Positions 11,140 to 28,786 of a stretch of DNA of 46,377 nucleotides are shown one piece after another. Each line of letters begins with the position of its first letter. The first letter of the stretch is position 1. This stretch comes from an uncultured Ilumatobacter sp. (lineage in GTDB: Bacteria > Actinomycetota > Acidimicrobiia > Acidimicrobiales > Ilumatobacteraceae): NCBI GenBank assembly GCA_937919625.1, contig CALFRK010000039.1, positions 1 to 46,377 on the forward strand. The letters are read 5' to 3'. Made by a program: the position numbers and the translations under genes. Under the pieces are notes generated by a model. It ran no database searches. It was given only the letters and a program-made list of their open reading frames with translations, and had not been told where the DNA came from.

Positions 11140-12420
11140 ATGGCGAAGTTCGGAGACACCGGCGAACTGCTGAAGTGTTCGTTCTGCGGCAAGTCCCAGA
11201 AGCAGGTCAAGAAGTTGATTGCCGGTCCGGGTGTTTACATCTGCGACGAGTGCATCGATCTGTGCAACGAGATCATCGAGGAGGAACTCACCGAAACTGG
11301 TGAGTTGACATTCGACCAGGTTCCCAATCCACGTGAGATTCGCGAGTTTCTCGACGACTACGTGGTCGGCCAAGACGACGCCAAGAAAATACTCTCTGTG
11401 TCGGTATACAACCACTACAAGCGAATCCAATATCAGCAGCAGTCCGGCATCGGTCGACGTGACGACGTCGAGTTGCAGAAGTCGAACATCTTGATGCTCG
11501 GCCCGACAGGGTGCGGCAAGACCCACCTGGCGCAAACCTTGGCGCGGATGCTGAATGTGCCGTTCGCTGTTGCAGATGCAACCGCGCTGACCGAGGCGGG
11601 GTATGTCGGCGAAGACGTCGAGAACATCTTGCTGAAGCTGATCCAGGCTGCCGACTTTGATACCAAGCGGGCAGAGACCGGCATCATCTACATCGACGAG
11701 ATCGACAAGATCGCCCGCAAGAGCGAAAACCCGTCGATCACCCGCGACGTCTCCGGTGAAGGCGTCCAGCAGGCGCTCTTGAAGATTCTCGAGGGCACCC
11801 AGGCCTCGGTGCCACCGCAAGGCGGCCGCAAACACCCGCATCAAGAGTTCATCGCGATCGACACGACCAACGTGTTGTTCATTCTGGGTGGCGCATTCGC
11901 AGGACTTGACACGATCATCGAAAGACGGGTTGGTCAGCAGGGTGTCGGGTTTCACGGCACCGTCAAGTCAAAGGCCAACCGCGATACGAGCGAGTTGTTT
12001 TCCCAGGTGCTGCCCGAGGACCTCATCAAGTTTGGCATGATCCCCGAGTTCATCGGCCGCCTACCGATGGTAGGAGTTGTCCGCTCGCTCGATCAGAAAG
12101 CGCTCGTGCAGATCCTCACCGAGCCGAAGAACTCGTTCGTCAAGCAGTACCAGAAGGTATTCGACTTCGAAGACGTCGAGCTCGAGTTCACCGAGGATGG
12201 TCTCGTAGCGATCGCCGACCTGGCGATCCTGCGCGGCACAGGCGCCCGCGGATTGAGGGCGATCCTCGAAGAGGTTCTGCTCGACACGATGTATGAACTG
12301 CCTGGACGCACCGATGTCAGCAGGGTCGTGATCGACGGGGCGACGGTGCATCAGAAGACCGTCCCGACACTCGTCCCACGCAAGGCCTCGCCTGCTCGTC
12401 CGCGTCGAGCCGCAAGCTGA
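11140..12420 (+). CDS. clpX: ClpX AAA+ unfoldase
   Basis: A 426-residue protein. The N-terminal zinc-binding domain has Cys13-x2-Cys16 and Cys35-x2-Cys38. The AAA+ core shows Walker A (GPTGCGKT), the pore loop [14 protein letters not shown], Walker B ([11 protein letters not shown]) and sensor 2 ([11 protein letters not shown]). It unfolds tagged substrates and passes them to ClpP. AAAGGGGG lies upstream of the ATG. The C-terminus ends in a short basic Ala/Pro/Arg tail. Confidence 0.97.
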
Positions 12421-12450
12421 CAAACGCGGCCTCGACAGAAGCCGATTGAA

Positions 12451-13740
12451 ATGGATTTCGCAGCCGCTCTGGCCTACCTCGACGAGCACGCCTCGTACGA
12501 CAAGACTGGTCGGATCGACGACCCGTCGACCGATTCGATCGCAACCCTGTGCTCGGCGATGGGCGACCCGCAACACGCCCAGCCCGTCATCCACGTCACC
12601 GGCACGAACGGCAAGGGTTCAACGGTGCAGATGATCAGCCGCTTGCTGATGGCACAGGGTTTGACGGTCGGCACCTACACCAGCCCACACCTCGAACGCA
12701 TCAACGAGCGCCTCAAGCGCAACGGCGATCCGATCAGTGACGAAGAATTCGCCGAACAGATCGCGGCGATCGCCGCCGTCGAGATCCTTACCGGGGTGCG
12801 TCCGACCTACTTCGAGGCGGTTACGGCCGCCGCCTTTCGGTGGTTTGCCGATGTGGCTGTCGACATCACCGTGGTCGAGGTCGGGATGCTCGGGCGTTGG
12901 GATGCCACCAACATCGTCGATGCCCAGGTGGCAGTCGTCACCAATATCGCCCTCGATCACACAGAGTTCGCCGGCCCGGAGCTGACCGATATCGCCCGCG
13001 AGAAGGCGGGCATCATCAAACCGGACAGCGCCGTCATAGTGGGGCAAATCGATCCCGATCTCGTACAGATCTTCCGTGAAGAGGGCGGAGCGGCCACGCT
13101 GGTGAGCGGCGACGACTTCGAGACCCTCGACAACTCATTGGCGATCGGTGGCAGGTCGCTTGACCTGCGCACGCCCACAACGATCTACTCCGACATCTTT
13201 CTGCCTTTGCACGGGGCCCACCAGGGCGAGAATGCCTCGGTTGCACTCGCCGCCGTCGAGACGTTCTTCGCCGCACCGCTGGCAGAAGACGTCGTGCGCG
13301 AGGGCTTTGCCAATGTCACGATGCCAGGCCGATTCGAGGTTCTCGGAGTGCAACCGCTCACGATCATCGACGGTGCCCATAATCCGCCTGGCGCCGACGT
13401 ATGTGCTTCGGTGTTCTTCGGCGACTTCGATCCGGATGGTCGACGAATTTTGATCGTAGGCACATTGCGCGACCCCGACGAGATGGTAGCCGCCCTACGG
13501 GCAGACGAGTTCGACGTGGTGCACGCATGCACCGCCCCATCGCCGCGAGGTGTACCCGGCACCGACGTAGCGGGCGCCGCTCGCCGTTTGGGCTGCGACG
13601 AGGTCTATGTTCACGATTCTGTCGATGCAGCATGTCGGGCTGCGCTCCGGTCGGCCGATGCCGAAGATGCGATCCTCGCCGCCGGCAGTATCTATGTCGC
13701 CGGCGCCGCCCGCTCGGCCCTGCGCAGATACGCCCCTTAA
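12451..13740 (+). CDS. folC: Folylpolyglutamate synthase / dihydrofolate synthase
   Basis: A 429-residue Mur-ligase-family enzyme that adds glutamate to folates. Motifs in order: P-loop HVTGTNGKGST (about 50-60), the TSPHLERINER segment (about 76-86), VVEVGMLGRWDATN, TNIALDHTEFAG with the metal-binding His, EKAGIIK, and IIDGAHNP in the C-terminal domain. The family is bifunctional in many bacteria. It lies 30 bases after clpX and may be read from the same transcript. Upstream sequence shows no obvious Shine-Dalgarno sequence. Confidence 0.92.
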   Translation: MDFAAALAYLDEHASYDKTGRIDDPSTDSIATLCSAMGDPQHAQPVIHVTGTNGKGSTVQMISRLLMAQGLTVGTYTSPHLERINERLKRNGDPISDEEFAEQIAAIAAVEILTGVRPTYFEAVTAAAFRWFADVAVDITVVEVGMLGRWDATNIVDAQVAVVTNIALDHTEFAGPELTDIAREKAGIIKPDSAVIVGQIDPDLVQIFREEGGAATLVSGDDFETLDNSLAIGGRSLDLRTPTTIYSDIFLPLHGAHQGENASVALAAVETFFAAPLAEDVVREGFANVTMPGRFEVLGVQPLTIIDGAHNPPGADVCASVFFGDFDPDGRRILIVGTLRDPDEMVAALRADEFDVVHACTAPSPRGVPGTDVAGAARRLGCDEVYVHDSVDAACRAALRSADAEDAILAAGSIYVAGAARSALRRYAP

Positions 13741-23408: not shown

Positions 23409-25502
23409 ATGGACGAAATGACCACCCAAACCGACGACGATTTCAACGCCGCGTCGGGCACTGACAACTTAGCGAGCGATGAAACGCCGATGCAGGCCTC
23501 AGCAGCTCGACCGGCATCGAACAGCACCGAAACCGGGGTAGCTGAATCCGACGGTGACGACGGTGACGATGGCGACGATGGCGACGACGGCGACGACGGC
23601 GATTCAGACCGTGTGGGCAACGCCCAGCGCAAGCGGCGGCGCGGCTCACGCGGGGGGCAGGGGCGCAAGAAGTCCAGCGACGAGCCGGGCTCAGACACTG
23701 AAGGTGGTGGCGACGCTGACGACACTGATGAAGTTGATGATGCGGACGACGCTGACGACTACCTCGGTGGCACACAGCCCGACGAGTTGCCCGAGCCGAT
23801 GCGTGAGGGCCGCGTGCAAGATGTCGATGCTGCCGAGAAAGCGTTGGTTCGTAAACCCCAGATCGGCGATACCAGGGCACCCCTCGTTCCGATGGTGCCC
23901 CCGCCAGGGCGGGCGCGAACCGGGGGCGACGAGTCGTCCGACGGTTCGGACCAAGCTGGGTCGCGATCGGGAAACCGGCGTCGTAAGCGTGGTGGTGGCG
24001 GTGGCGCCAAACCTCCCGGCAACACCGGCGGACAGGCAAAGGCGAAGGCGAAGGGCGACCGGACCGCTCGGGATGGACAGTCGAAACGCGATGGGGCCGC
24101 CGACGGTGATGGTCGCGGCGACGGCGAGGACCAACGCAAGAAGCGTCGGGGGGGCCGAGGCAAGTCCAAGCCGACCGCAGCCGAGCTGGACCTGATCGAG
24201 CAGCGCAAGGGTCGCGAACGTAATGGCAAACCGATCGGCCGCTACTTCATGTGTGTCCAGGTCCGTGCAGGGATGGCACAGGTGGGTGTGCTCGAAGGAC
24301 GCAATCTGATCGAACACTACGTGTCGCGGCCGGCCGATGACGTGAGTCAAATCCACGGCAACATCTATCTAGGTCGGGTTCAGAATGTGCTGCCTGGCAT
24401 GGAGGCGGCGTTCGTCGATATCGCCACGCCAAAAAACGCCGTGCTGTACCGCGGCGACGTGCAATACGACGCCGAGGACATCGAGCAAAAGGGCAAGAAC
24501 GCCCGTATCGAAGACATTCTCAAGGCACGCCAGATGATCATGTGCCAGGTCACGAAAAACCCGATCGGGGCCAAGGGCGCCCGCCTGACCCAGGAAGTTT
24601 CGCTGCCTGGCAGATTCGTGGTGCTGATTCCGAACTCCAAGACGTACGGCATTTCCAAGCGGCTTCCCGACGACACGCGCAAGCGGCTACGCAACATCCT
24701 CGACCGGGTCAAGCCCGATCAGCACGGCCTGATCGTGCGCACCGCCGCCGAACACGCCACCGAGGCTGACCTCGAGGCCGACATGAACATCCTGCTCAGG
24801 CAGTGGGACGAAATCGAACGCAATGCAGCCAAGGCCAACAGGCCTGCTCTGTTGTATCGCGAGCCCGAACTGGCGGTACGGGTGATCCGTGAGGAGTTCA
24901 ACTCTGACTATCGCGGCGTTGTCATCGACGACCAGCGCCTCTACGAAGAGGTGCGCGACTATGTGCAGGCGTTCAATCCCGAACTGGTCGATCGCATCGA
25001 GCACTACGACGCGGTGGCCGAGGGCCTAACGGTGTTCGAGCGGTTCCATGTGCACGAGCAGGTTCACAAGGCGCTCGATCGCAAGGTGTGGCTGCCGTCG
25101 GGCGGCTCGCTGATCATCGAGCACACCGAGGCGCTGACCGTGATCGACGTCAACACTGGCAAGAACGTCGGCAAGTCGAACCTCGAATCAACCGTGTTCC
25201 ACAACAACATGGAAGCGGCTGAGGAGGTTGCCAAGCAGCTGCGCCTGCGTGACATCGGCGGCATCATCGTGATCGACTTCATCGACATGGAGATCAAGGA
25301 CAATCGTGCCAAGGTCGTGGCCGCCTTCCGTGACGCGCTGGCCCGTGACAAGACCCGTACCCAGGTGTTCGACATCACCGAACTCGGTCTGGTCGAGATG
25401 ACCCGCAAGCGAATCGGGGAGGGATTGTTGACCGAGTTCTCGGAGATCTGCCCCGATTGCGAAGGCCGCGGTGTACTTGTCGACCACACGCTGCTCGATT
25501 GA
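23409..25502 (+). CDS. Ribonuclease E/G with acidic-basic N-terminal extension
   Basis: A 697-residue endoribonuclease. The first 260 residues are low complexity: an Asp/Gly tract of GDD repeats (from about residue 48), Asp/Glu-rich stretches, then Lys/Arg/Gly-rich sequence. The catalytic region follows: an S1-type domain (GNIYLGRVQNVLPGMEAAF), the 5'-sensor/DNase I-like part with the catalytic Asp in LTVIDVNTGKNVGK, the second acidic site IVIDFIDME, and the zinc-link CPDCEGRG close to the end. There is no long C-terminal scaffold; the disordered region is N-terminal, as in actinobacterial RNase E. It acts in rRNA/tRNA processing and mRNA decay. Confidence 0.93.
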   Translation: MDEMTTQTDDDFNAASGTDNLASDETPMQASAARPASNSTETGVAESDGDDGDDGDDGDDGDDGDSDRVGNAQRKRRRGSRGGQGRKKSSDEPGSDTEGGGDADDTDEVDDADDADDYLGGTQPDELPEPMREGRVQDVDAAEKALVRKPQIGDTRAPLVPMVPPPGRARTGGDESSDGSDQAGSRSGNRRRKRGGGGGAKPPGNTGGQAKAKAKGDRTARDGQSKRDGAADGDGRGDGEDQRKKRRGGRGKSKPTAAELDLIEQRKGRERNGKPIGRYFMCVQVRAGMAQVGVLEGRNLIEHYVSRPADDVSQIHGNIYLGRVQNVLPGMEAAFVDIATPKNAVLYRGDVQYDAEDIEQKGKNARIEDILKARQMIMCQVTKNPIGAKGARLTQEVSLPGRFVVLIPNSKTYGISKRLPDDTRKRLRNILDRVKPDQHGLIVRTAAEHATEADLEADMNILLRQWDEIERNAAKANRPALLYREPELAVRVIREEFNSDYRGVVIDDQRLYEEVRDYVQAFNPELVDRIEHYDAVAEGLTVFERFHVHEQVHKALDRKVWLPSGGSLIIEHTEALTVIDVNTGKNVGKSNLESTVFHNNMEAAEEVAKQLRLRDIGGIIVIDFIDMEIKDNRAKVVAAFRDALARDKTRTQVFDITELGLVEMTRKRIGEGLLTEFSEICPDCEGRGVLVDHTLLD

Positions 25503-25579
25503 TCGGGCTGGATTTTTGATGGCGCCGACAGGGCGCTCACCGAAGGTCGGCACAAAAACCAAAACGGAAGGACTGGCCG

Positions 25580-25891
25580 GTGAAGATCGAGATCACTGAC
25601 GAAGCAAGAGAGTTGCTCGCCAAACGGGGCGGCACGATGACGATCGACTTCATCAAGCCCACCGGTTGAGGCAAGGTCGCCGAGGTGTCGGTCGACACCA
25701 ATACGACCAACAAGAACCTCGCTCCGTACAGCCGGATTCGGCACCCTGACTACCGAATCCTCGTGACTCCCGTGTTGTCGGGAATGGCGTCGCGCATGCG
25801 GATCACCACGCGCGGCCGGTTCGTCAAAAATCTCGTCGTCGAGCTTGCTGATGATCGGCAGCGCTCGGTCGACTTCGGGACCGACTGCTAG
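25580..25891 (+). CDS. Candidate HesB/IscA-like selenoprotein with in-frame UGA (Sec30)
   Basis: Reading from GTG at 25580 gives 103 residues ending at TAG 25889-25891, with one in-frame TGA at 25667-25669 (codon 30). GGAAGGA at 25566-25572 is 7 bases before the start. The opening KIEITDEARELLAKRGG is that of HesB/IscA A-type proteins, and the TGA falls in FIKPTG-(U)-GKVAEV, where A-type proteins have their first conserved Cys. Codon use stays GC3-rich and protein-like on both sides of the TGA. A perfect hairpin with a GGTC loop begins 14 bases after the TGA. The usual C-terminal Cys-Gly-Cys is absent; the only other cysteine is the last residue. Alternatives are a pseudogene from TGC-to-TGA mutation or a shorter gene starting at 25685. 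Confidence 0.65.
25684..25699 (+). promoter_or_regulatory. Putative bacterial SECIS hairpin
   Basis: GGTGTC (25684-25689), loop GGTC (25690-25693), GACACC (25694-25699). The apical loop starts 20 bases after the UGA. E. coli fdhF, from memory, has a GGUC loop about 18 bases after its UGA, so both loop sequence and distance fit SelB recognition. Confidence 0.6.
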
Positions 25892-26683: not shown

Positions 26684-28786
26684 TTACGTCGTCGCTGCTG
26701 TCGGTCGGCGCTTGCGGTGGCGAGGGAGCAGTCCTGTGATGGCGATCAGGGCGACGCCGGCGATGAACCCGATGTCGCCGATTTGGAGCAGCCGGGTGGC
26801 TGCGCCGTTGCCGGTGCGGGGCAGTGTGACGACCGGCGACGGGATGGTGGGGAGCGGCGGTGGGGTGGTACCCGTTGCCAGCGTCGTGGGAACCACTTCT
26901 ACCCGTGCGGGCAGTGTCGTCGGTGTGCTTGTTGTCGTTGAGCTGTCAGCTTTCGGCACCGCGATCGTGAGCGTCTGATCGGGGTCGGCGAGGTCGTCGT
27001 GGAGCGCGACCACCTTGTCGCCCAACAAGAGCTGTTCAACGATGACCAGCGTGGTCGGTTCGAGCGGTGGCACCTCGAACAGAATCGGGACGACTGCCAA
27101 ATCGAACTCGGCGGTGAACGAGGCAACCACTCGTTCGACCACTGTCGTGATGCCGTTCGGCATGATGCTCAACAGTTCACCGATCAGCGTGTACGTCGAT
27201 CCCGGGGTCAAGCCAGTCAGCCACACGTCGTCGATCGCGTCTCCACCATCGGCGCTCATGATCTGATCGCCGTCGCTCGAGTCTCGGGCCGTGGTGTCGA
27301 TATCTGGCCTTGGCACGATATTCAGATACGGGATCAGAATCACAACGCCAGCCAACAGATCGTCGAGGTCGATACTGATCGCCTGGCACCCGCCGTCGAC
27401 AAGATCGTCAGCCCATGAGGGCTTTTCGAGTTCACAGATCTCGTATGTGCCCAGCGCCAACTCGATCGATTCGGTGGTTCCGTCCGGCCCGGTGATCAAC
27501 CAATCGGTCCAGCCATCCTGCTGCCGGATGATCTCGAATACAAATTCGCTTCGATCGGCCGGGCCCGCGGCTGGTACAGAGAGCTGCTTGCGCACGGCGA
27601 CCGGAACTGTCATCGGATCGTTGGTGAACTCGACCGTGGTGGGATGCAGTGGGTCGGTGCTGGCCTGCCCGATGCTGACGTCGTGAACCGAGCGGACGAG
27701 TGCCGGCGGGGCTTCGACCTCGCTGATCGTGTACGGCGCCGGATGAGAAACCGGGTCGATCGCATCGAACGTGGCATGGCCCTCGTCGTCCGACTCGGAG
27801 CGCTCGATCTCGATCCCGGCGGCATCGAGCACTGCGAACGTTCCGTCGGCGACACCGATCGTCGGGTCAGAGGAATGTTTGAGAACCAGCACATGACGGG
27901 GGAGAGGCGGAACAACGAACTCCGCTTCCAACTCGATCGACGTCGCCGTGATCATGCGCTGCACGGCACTGGTGCCGTCCCACTCGCGATGCGGACCAGG
28001 CGCTGAGACGGTGGCACGCACCGTCGCTCCGTCGGCATAGTCGGCGAGGGCGACATCGGTGCTGCCCTGATCGCCAGTCACCGTCTCGAACGTTTCCGGC
28101 GCTGCGCCTGGCGCCGTGACCGTGATCGAGACTGGTCGCCCGACAATCGGGCCGGCACCACCTAGCAGAACGAATTGGTGCGACTCGCTATCAACTGAGA
28201 GCTGCCACGGGCCGCTGGCCGCCACGACCTGGCGATGCAGTTCGGCGACCCGGCGTTCGGCGAGATCAAGTTCGCTGCCGCCGGCGCGCAGCCCGATCGG
28301 ATGGGCAAGGCTGAACATGGTGAGCGCCTCCCACGATTCGGGCGCCAGGGGGCCGATCGGCGCGAAGCCGTTTGTGCCATCGGCCCAGACCGGCAGCCCT
28401 GGGGCTCGCAGCGCTTCGGCGTAGTACCAGGCCAGCGCCGCCGCGGCGATAGCCGTGTCGTCGTCGATCGGCGAACGTTCGATCAACCAGATCAGAGCGT
28501 CGAGATGGTTCGATGACACCGACGACGGCACCCGAGCGTAGGCGTTCAGGGTGGTCGAATGAGGCTGGTCGGCCTCGATGCACAGCGCCAGTGTCGAGAC
28601 TTCACCGTCCGTCAGCCGAAAGGTGCCCAAACCTTGGCTGCCAAAACCGTTGATCAGCACGTCGAGGTATCCAGAATCGTACGACGCCGTGATGGTGGCG
28701 GCCTGAGCCTGATTCGGTTTAGCCGAGGCGATTGCTACTGATGTGGCGGCGACGATGGCGAGTGTGGTCAGAATTCTCGTGTTCAC
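26684..28786 (-). CDS. Sortase-anchored surface protein (VaFE-type, LPRTG)
   Basis: A 700-residue exported protein. A signal peptide ends near AQA-A (about residue 29). The next 150 residues resemble a thioester domain, with Cys69 in LALCIEAD, but the expected Gln partner is not seen: the matching helix reads AAAALAWYYAE. Several beta-sandwich modules follow, including prealbumin-like/collagen-binding-B-type repeats and a VaFE-like unit (DTTARDSSDGD, then LTGLTPGSTYTLIGELL). A Thr/Pro-rich stalk precedes LPRTG at 655-659, a membrane helix and a basic tail. The start is GTG. It is presumably an adhesin or stalk protein linked to the wall by a sortase outside the window. Confidence 0.82.
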   Translation of the reverse strand: MNTRILTTLAIVAATSVAIASAKPNQAQAATITASYDSGYLDVLINGFGSQGLGTFRLTDGEVSTLALCIEADQPHSTTLNAYARVPSSVSSNHLDALIWLIERSPIDDDTAIAAAALAWYYAEALRAPGLPVWADGTNGFAPIGPLAPESWEALTMFSLAHPIGLRAGGSELDLAERRVAELHRQVVAASGPWQLSVDSESHQFVLLGGAGPIVGRPVSITVTAPGAAPETFETVTGDQGSTDVALADYADGATVRATVSAPGPHREWDGTSAVQRMITATSIELEAEFVVPPLPRHVLVLKHSSDPTIGVADGTFAVLDAAGIEIERSESDDEGHATFDAIDPVSHPAPYTISEVEAPPALVRSVHDVSIGQASTDPLHPTTVEFTNDPMTVPVAVRKQLSVPAAGPADRSEFVFEIIRQQDGWTDWLITGPDGTTESIELALGTYEICELEKPSWADDLVDGGCQAISIDLDDLLAGVVILIPYLNIVPRPDIDTTARDSSDGDQIMSADGGDAIDDVWLTGLTPGSTYTLIGELLSIMPNGITTVVERVVASFTAEFDLAVVPILFEVPPLEPTTLVIVEQLLLGDKVVALHDDLADPDQTLTIAVPKADSSTTTSTPTTLPARVEVVPTTLATGTTPPPLPTIPSPVVTLPRTGNGAATRLLQIGDIGFIAGVALIAITGLLPRHRKRRPTAATT

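Follow-up and report, generated by a model that had tools for sequence, protein, structure and literature searches.

In the HesB-like selenoproteins of the family TIGR01911, selenocysteine (Sec) takes the position of the first cluster Cys. The accessible part of a 2026 inventory of prokaryotic selenoproteins counts 119 families and subfamilies, including HesB-like TIGR01911 and NF041239, and its table gives the motifs of the two as UxGP and CxxU, respectively (PMC13188914). A HesB-like selenoprotein of Methanococcus maripaludis was found by mutagenesis and 75Se labelling, and its function is described as not clear in the available text of that report (PMC11097638). NF041239, the CC/Se motif family (seleno)protein, has its founding member in Moorella thermoacetica. 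Sec in a HesB-type protein is therefore already known, and the group of genes described here is a separate variant that was not found catalogued: the accessible part of the inventory contains no entry identifiable with this Acidimicrobiia UGA family (PMC13188914), and the family is absent from the portions available of five further sources (PMC1794560, PMC12013277, PMC9312934, PMC11097638, PMC5579227). Likewise, literature pairing selenoprotein or selenocysteine with Acidimicrobiia or Ilumatobacter yielded, in its accessible part, no paper on this family.

The gene lies on the forward strand of a stretch of 46,377 nucleotides from an uncultured Ilumatobacter sp. (the whole stretch analysed, hereafter the window), the draft genome of which comprises 4.10 Mb in 185 contigs (98.73% complete, 3.05% contamination). 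Direct reading confirmed the features listed in a preliminary description of this DNA—that is, a frame of 103 codons running from a GTG to a TAG at 25580-25891, with a single internal TGA at codon 30 (25667-25669); the motif GGAAGGA at 25566-25572, seven bases before the GTG; and, within the coding sequence and starting 14 bases after the UGA, a perfect 6-bp stem (25684-25689 pairing with 25694-25699) closing a GGUC loop (25690-25693). GGAAGGA is a likely ribosome binding site, but the evidence is modest, since among the loci from the class search described below most relatives show no comparable motif ahead of the gene. A gene finder treating UGA as a stop would end the gene at codon 30. In the reading proposed here, SelB and tRNA-Sec would decode the UGA at 25667 as selenocysteine, directed by the GGUC-loop hairpin, and the product would adopt an A-type fold and bind a metal or an Fe-S unit through its selenolate, acting as a carrier or scaffold beside the ordinary ErpA of the same cell. 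Taken as a whole, this explanation is given a probability of roughly 0.5. Its first part, the insertion of Sec at codon 30 under the direction of the downstream hairpin, is judged almost certain from comparison of sequences.

By profile, the gene family is a below-cutoff relative of NF041239 and a member of neither TIGR01911 nor PF01521. NF041239 was the nearest profile to the window protein (23.6 bits, cutoff 40), four other Sec members scored 18.8-28.8 bits against it, and all 30 members scanned matched it at E<=1 (best 6.9e-8). The alignment runs nearly end to end, from window residues 1-88 to positions 1-89 of the 91 in the profile, and in an alignment with four CC members the window Sec shares a column with the second residue of their Cys pair; the motif here, however, is UG(K/G), unlike the CCGG of that family. 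One genome (G667) holds both a UGA copy (L132) and a CC-type member of NF041239 (L147). TIGR01911 and NF038090 (IscA_HesB_Se) resemble the present family in being Sec proteins of the HesB/IscA kind, and the preliminary description had named TIGR01911 as the family for comparison. The window protein gave no match to TIGR01911 (cutoff 66.35 bits) or NF038090 at E<=10, in a library in which the source genome's own ErpA matches both, and TIGR01911 was absent from the families matched by the 30 members at E<=1. UG(K/G) also differs from the UxGP motif of TIGR01911 given in the available part of the inventory (PMC13188914). There was no sequence match to PF01521 in Pfam (none to the Pfam Fe-S_biosyn family at E<=10), nor any match at E<=10 in a sequence-profile search of solved structures, and PHROGs returned one match, at E 0.17. 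Thus, of the earlier label HesB/IscA-like, family membership fell away; what stood was the likeness of the predicted fold to IscA and SufA.

That likeness comes from two AlphaFold2 models with mean pLDDT of 82.5 and 84.6. In Foldseek searches with these models, rows 1-10 and 1-11, respectively, were SufA, IscA and their kin (best E 3.3e-4 and 1.3e-3), one of the latter eleven being a chain of YneR, which we take to be related to the A-type carriers. VIA aligned 93 residues with IscA (1x0g_C; Z 8.5, rmsd 3.3, next unrelated row 2.7) and 84 residues with SufA (2d2a_B; Z 9.2, rmsd 2.6, next unrelated row 2.4), although the aligner cautions that Z values around 8 may reflect nothing more specific than a widespread arrangement. 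Among the leading fold-match rows, TM-scores of the predicted models were 0.37-0.62 and identities 4-16%. The protein is thus predicted to have the fold of the A-type Fe-S carriers (IscA/SufA/HesB; PF01521, TIGR00049). In the models, Sec lies in a loop that joins the strands of residues 19-25 and 35-39, tentatively where A-type carriers have the first cluster Cys. The UGA had earlier been placed at that Cys; in a profile comparison, Sec aligned with the first Cys of the source genome's ErpA, which scores above the cutoff of its own model, but the alignment was weak (E 0.0046, probability 7.6%).

Unlike the A-type carriers, the family lacks the C-terminal Cys-Gly-Cys and carries instead tail Cys and His residues of varied pattern. 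In the window gene, the tail (25859-25888, forward strand) ends in Cys103, a putative further metal or redox ligand, and it has low confidence in both models. Among the 86 gene copies counted (two truncated ones set aside), 84 have a Cys or His within the last 16 residues, 62 contain Cys (one or two residues, confined to the tail), 48 have His-x-His, and 24 are free of Cys. Two related copies (L030, L115) have a long acidic C-terminal extension with neither Cys nor His in the last 16 residues. The flexible tail, through Cys and/or His, would probably supply the other ligand or ligands in place of the missing Cys-Gly-Cys pair. We infer Sec to be a ligand of a metal or cluster because of the predicted fold, the invariant site, the 24 Cys-free copies and the tail Cys or His of 84 of the 86; a Sec-ligated metal or Fe-S carrier is accordingly regarded as an evenly balanced proposition, with the missing Cys-Gly-Cys and the lack of any pointer to Fe-S assembly among the identified neighbours speaking against it. 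The fuller picture of a selenolate-ligated Fe-S or iron carrier without Cys-Gly-Cys, combining one Sec and a Cys/His tail with a SECIS frozen nearly letter for letter and spread over at least two actinobacterial classes, is tentative and, taken together, rather unlikely.

The serious rival is a true selenoprotein of the same fold that acts as a redox enzyme on a peroxide, a thiol or an organic substrate, with the selenol as nucleophile. Most uncharacterised selenoproteins are probably redox proteins according to the accessible part of the review (PMC13188914), and the tail Cys present in 62 of the 86 copies could resolve a selenenic acid. However, the sequences read contain no CxxU or UxxC motif, a Se-S bond within the chain is impossible in the 24 copies because they hold no Cys, and the predicted fold is that of the Fe-S carriers. 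A redox role has a substantial chance of being correct, somewhat short of that of the Sec-ligated carrier.

In a sample of 395 genomes of the class, a protein search found homologues in 31; selA was matched in all 31 (30 at E<=1e-100, and G333 weakly at 1.3e-8), and since each of the positives stands on the selA list, the gene is absent from the class genomes without selA (0 of 119). Co-occurrence of this degree would arise by chance with a probability of ~9e-6 if kinship is ignored. Named carriers include Ilumatobacter nonamiensis YM16-303, Acidimicrobiia bins and Nitriliruptoraceae bins. Further copies (L062, L068, L082, L091, L099, L101, L108, L116, L117, L118) lie in bins titled Pseudonocardiaceae, Acidobacteria or Chloroflexi, which may reflect misnamed bins or gene transfer.

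In the window, the gene sits between an RNase E/G gene on one side and the L21 and L27 ribosomal protein genes on the other. Of the 87 other loci, at least 8 had a relative of RNase E/G and at least 11 a relative of L21; a likely lnt gene, so labelled by us from its sequence, was present at no fewer than 12 of the 88 loci, many flanks being short. No neighbour common to all loci and no functional link was seen, and the identified neighbours, of which seven in the window were scanned against the library, gave no pointer to Fe-S assembly. The gene neighbourhood was rejected as a guide to function. Two other features of the window were recorded: a run of Asp/Gly codons (DGDDGDDGDD, 23550-23606) lies towards the N-terminus of RNase E/G, and the minus strand at 26684-28786 encodes a surface-type protein of 700 residues with a T-Q ester bond domain, a SpaA-like domain and, near its end, LPRTG with a hydrophobic stretch.

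These data have been considered with respect to a second rival, in which the protein is a buffer or delivery agent for a soft metal, or for selenium itself, bound through the selenolate. The combination of Sec with a His-x-His (48 of 86) or Cys tail would suit such a role, as would the restriction of the gene, within the class, to genomes with selA. Nevertheless, the scan of seven neighbours in the window turned up no gene for metal resistance or selenium metabolism, none was recognised by eye in eight neighbouring ORFs, and two of the genomes with Cys forms gave no selA match. This rival is considered improbable.

Conservation of the UGA was followed in two sets of loci. All 31 homologues from the class protein search have exactly one in-frame TGA, and loci were read for 30 of the 31 positive genomes (G090 being without a locus), and the TGA position is shared by all 30. 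Public genome contigs were also scanned with a peptide pattern; 78 of its 82 matches were confirmed, and TGA stands at the Sec site in all 78. This pattern, EVSVDT with flanking residues, dictates which amino acids overlie the hairpin but leaves their codons free, so that residue conservation in these 78 loci is biased, but codon conservation is not. Pooling of the resulting 108 loci left 88 distinct gene copies, 20 being in both sets, and 86 were counted after L064 and L066, which are ended by contig ends, had been set aside. In the alignment of these 86, TGA occupies the same column in every copy, never TAA or TAG, and the frame is intact on both sides. Close relatives, which would have carried further disabling mutations had the gene decayed, were intact apart from the TGA in those read (e.g., L010 and L011).

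Across 396 genomes of the phylum, a profile search recovered the gene from 12, 8 with one TGA and 4 without. These four homologues (L135, L136, L137 and L139, from genomes G513, G533, G707 and G552) have a Cys codon, TGT or TGC, precisely where the others have the UGA; the preliminary description had asked for homologues with either UGA or Cys at this codon. The hairpin is broken in these Cys forms: 3, 3, 4 and 3 of the 6 positions are paired, respectively, and the loop is not GGTC. Two of the four genomes lack a selA match and two have selA. In a tree of 95 rows and 100 columns, from which three truncated Sec rows were left out, the four Cys forms make up two pairs among the Sec forms, without resolved order.

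The hairpin, read as the SECIS (GGTGTC-GGTC-GACACC; 25684-25699, forward strand), was kept in the homologues that have TGA. The 16-mer alone folds at -8.1 kcal/mol, with 6 of 200 shuffles as good, and the 45 bases from the UGA fold at -17.6 kcal/mol (z -3.2; 1 of 200 shuffles as good). The 4.1 Mb genome has a single instance of TGA followed by N10-22 and the 16-mer, and none of the reversed control pattern. Across the 86 distinct copies, all 516 of 516 stem cells are paired, and the spacing between UGA and hairpin is 14 in 77 rows and 17 in 9. Two stem pairs show double compensatory changes, both in copies from the class protein search rather than the peptide-pattern scan: in L015 a U-A pair became G-C, which entailed the substitutions Ser37Ala and Asp39Ala, and in L020 a G-C pair became C-G. 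None of 500 shuffles reached the observed value of any of five measures, and controls with the structure slid along the alignment pair at 27.5-66.9%. In covariation score, the structures slid by +1 and +3 (0.044 and 0.082) exceed the true one (0.034), because the true stem scarcely varies. At each of positions 35-38 the majority residue is always encoded by one and the same codon (84, 86, 85 and 86 copies); position 39 departs from its usual codon in 1 copy and position 40 in 5, whereas two to six codons are in use for the other conserved residues counted. Three more UGA copies (L153, L154 and L159) have an identical 16-mer. The window has no Rfam match at the gathering score. The argument that the hairpin is under selection as RNA rests on pairing, double changes and frozen codons.

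A pseudogene, or two short frames in which the UGA is a normal stop after a 29-residue peptide and a 68-residue ORF begins at GTG 25685, would accord with the mechanical listing of 25685-25891 as an ORF. It was rejected, as far as comparison can do so, by the TGA, which all 86 copies keep within an otherwise open frame, by the Cys homologues that read straight through and by the frozen hairpin, and its chance is considered negligible. Thus, the earlier proposal of a hidden selenoprotein read through a UGA has been borne out by the conserved UGA, the Cys forms, the frozen hairpin and the Sec machinery.

The last of these was sought in the source genome as selA, selB, selD and tRNA-Sec, the genes named for such a check, and all four were found. 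A tRNA-Sec scored 63.9 bits against a cutoff of 47 and was also called as tRNA-SeC by ARAGORN; selB (262 bits) and selA (406.9 bits) are adjacent on contig C1; and selD scored 322.7 bits. In this draft of 185 contigs, the machinery lies on contigs other than that of the selenoprotein gene. Readthrough of the UGA by another route (a near-cognate tRNA, or UGA read as Trp), with another role for the hairpin, is equally negligible, UGA = Trp being rejected since many of the homologous genes themselves end in UGA, the genome has the full Sec machinery and, in the four homologues where the UGA is missing, Cys rather than Trp stands at the site.

The same genome contains an FdhA-like gene (L161; contig C37 of G000, 12332-12784, minus strand) with an in-frame TGA at a UHAP site; its match to TIGR01553 (84 bits) falls short of that model's cutoff. 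Its UGA is followed by a hairpin whose loop is GGUCU, and this gene is likely a second selenoprotein. As a control for the present hairpin it offers a resemblance only, because its 45-base stretch as a whole folds no better than shuffles (z 0.64).

Overall, the near-invariant hairpin, together with a copy (L015) in which two residues changed and yet the pair was kept, provides a clean case of RNA constraint prevailing over protein sequence. The family would be a well-supported addition, in Acidimicrobiia and relatives, to the 2026 inventory, the accessible part of which counts 119 families and subfamilies of prokaryotic selenoproteins (PMC13188914). It also raises the question of whether selenocysteine can act as a metal ligand on the fold of an Fe-S carrier.
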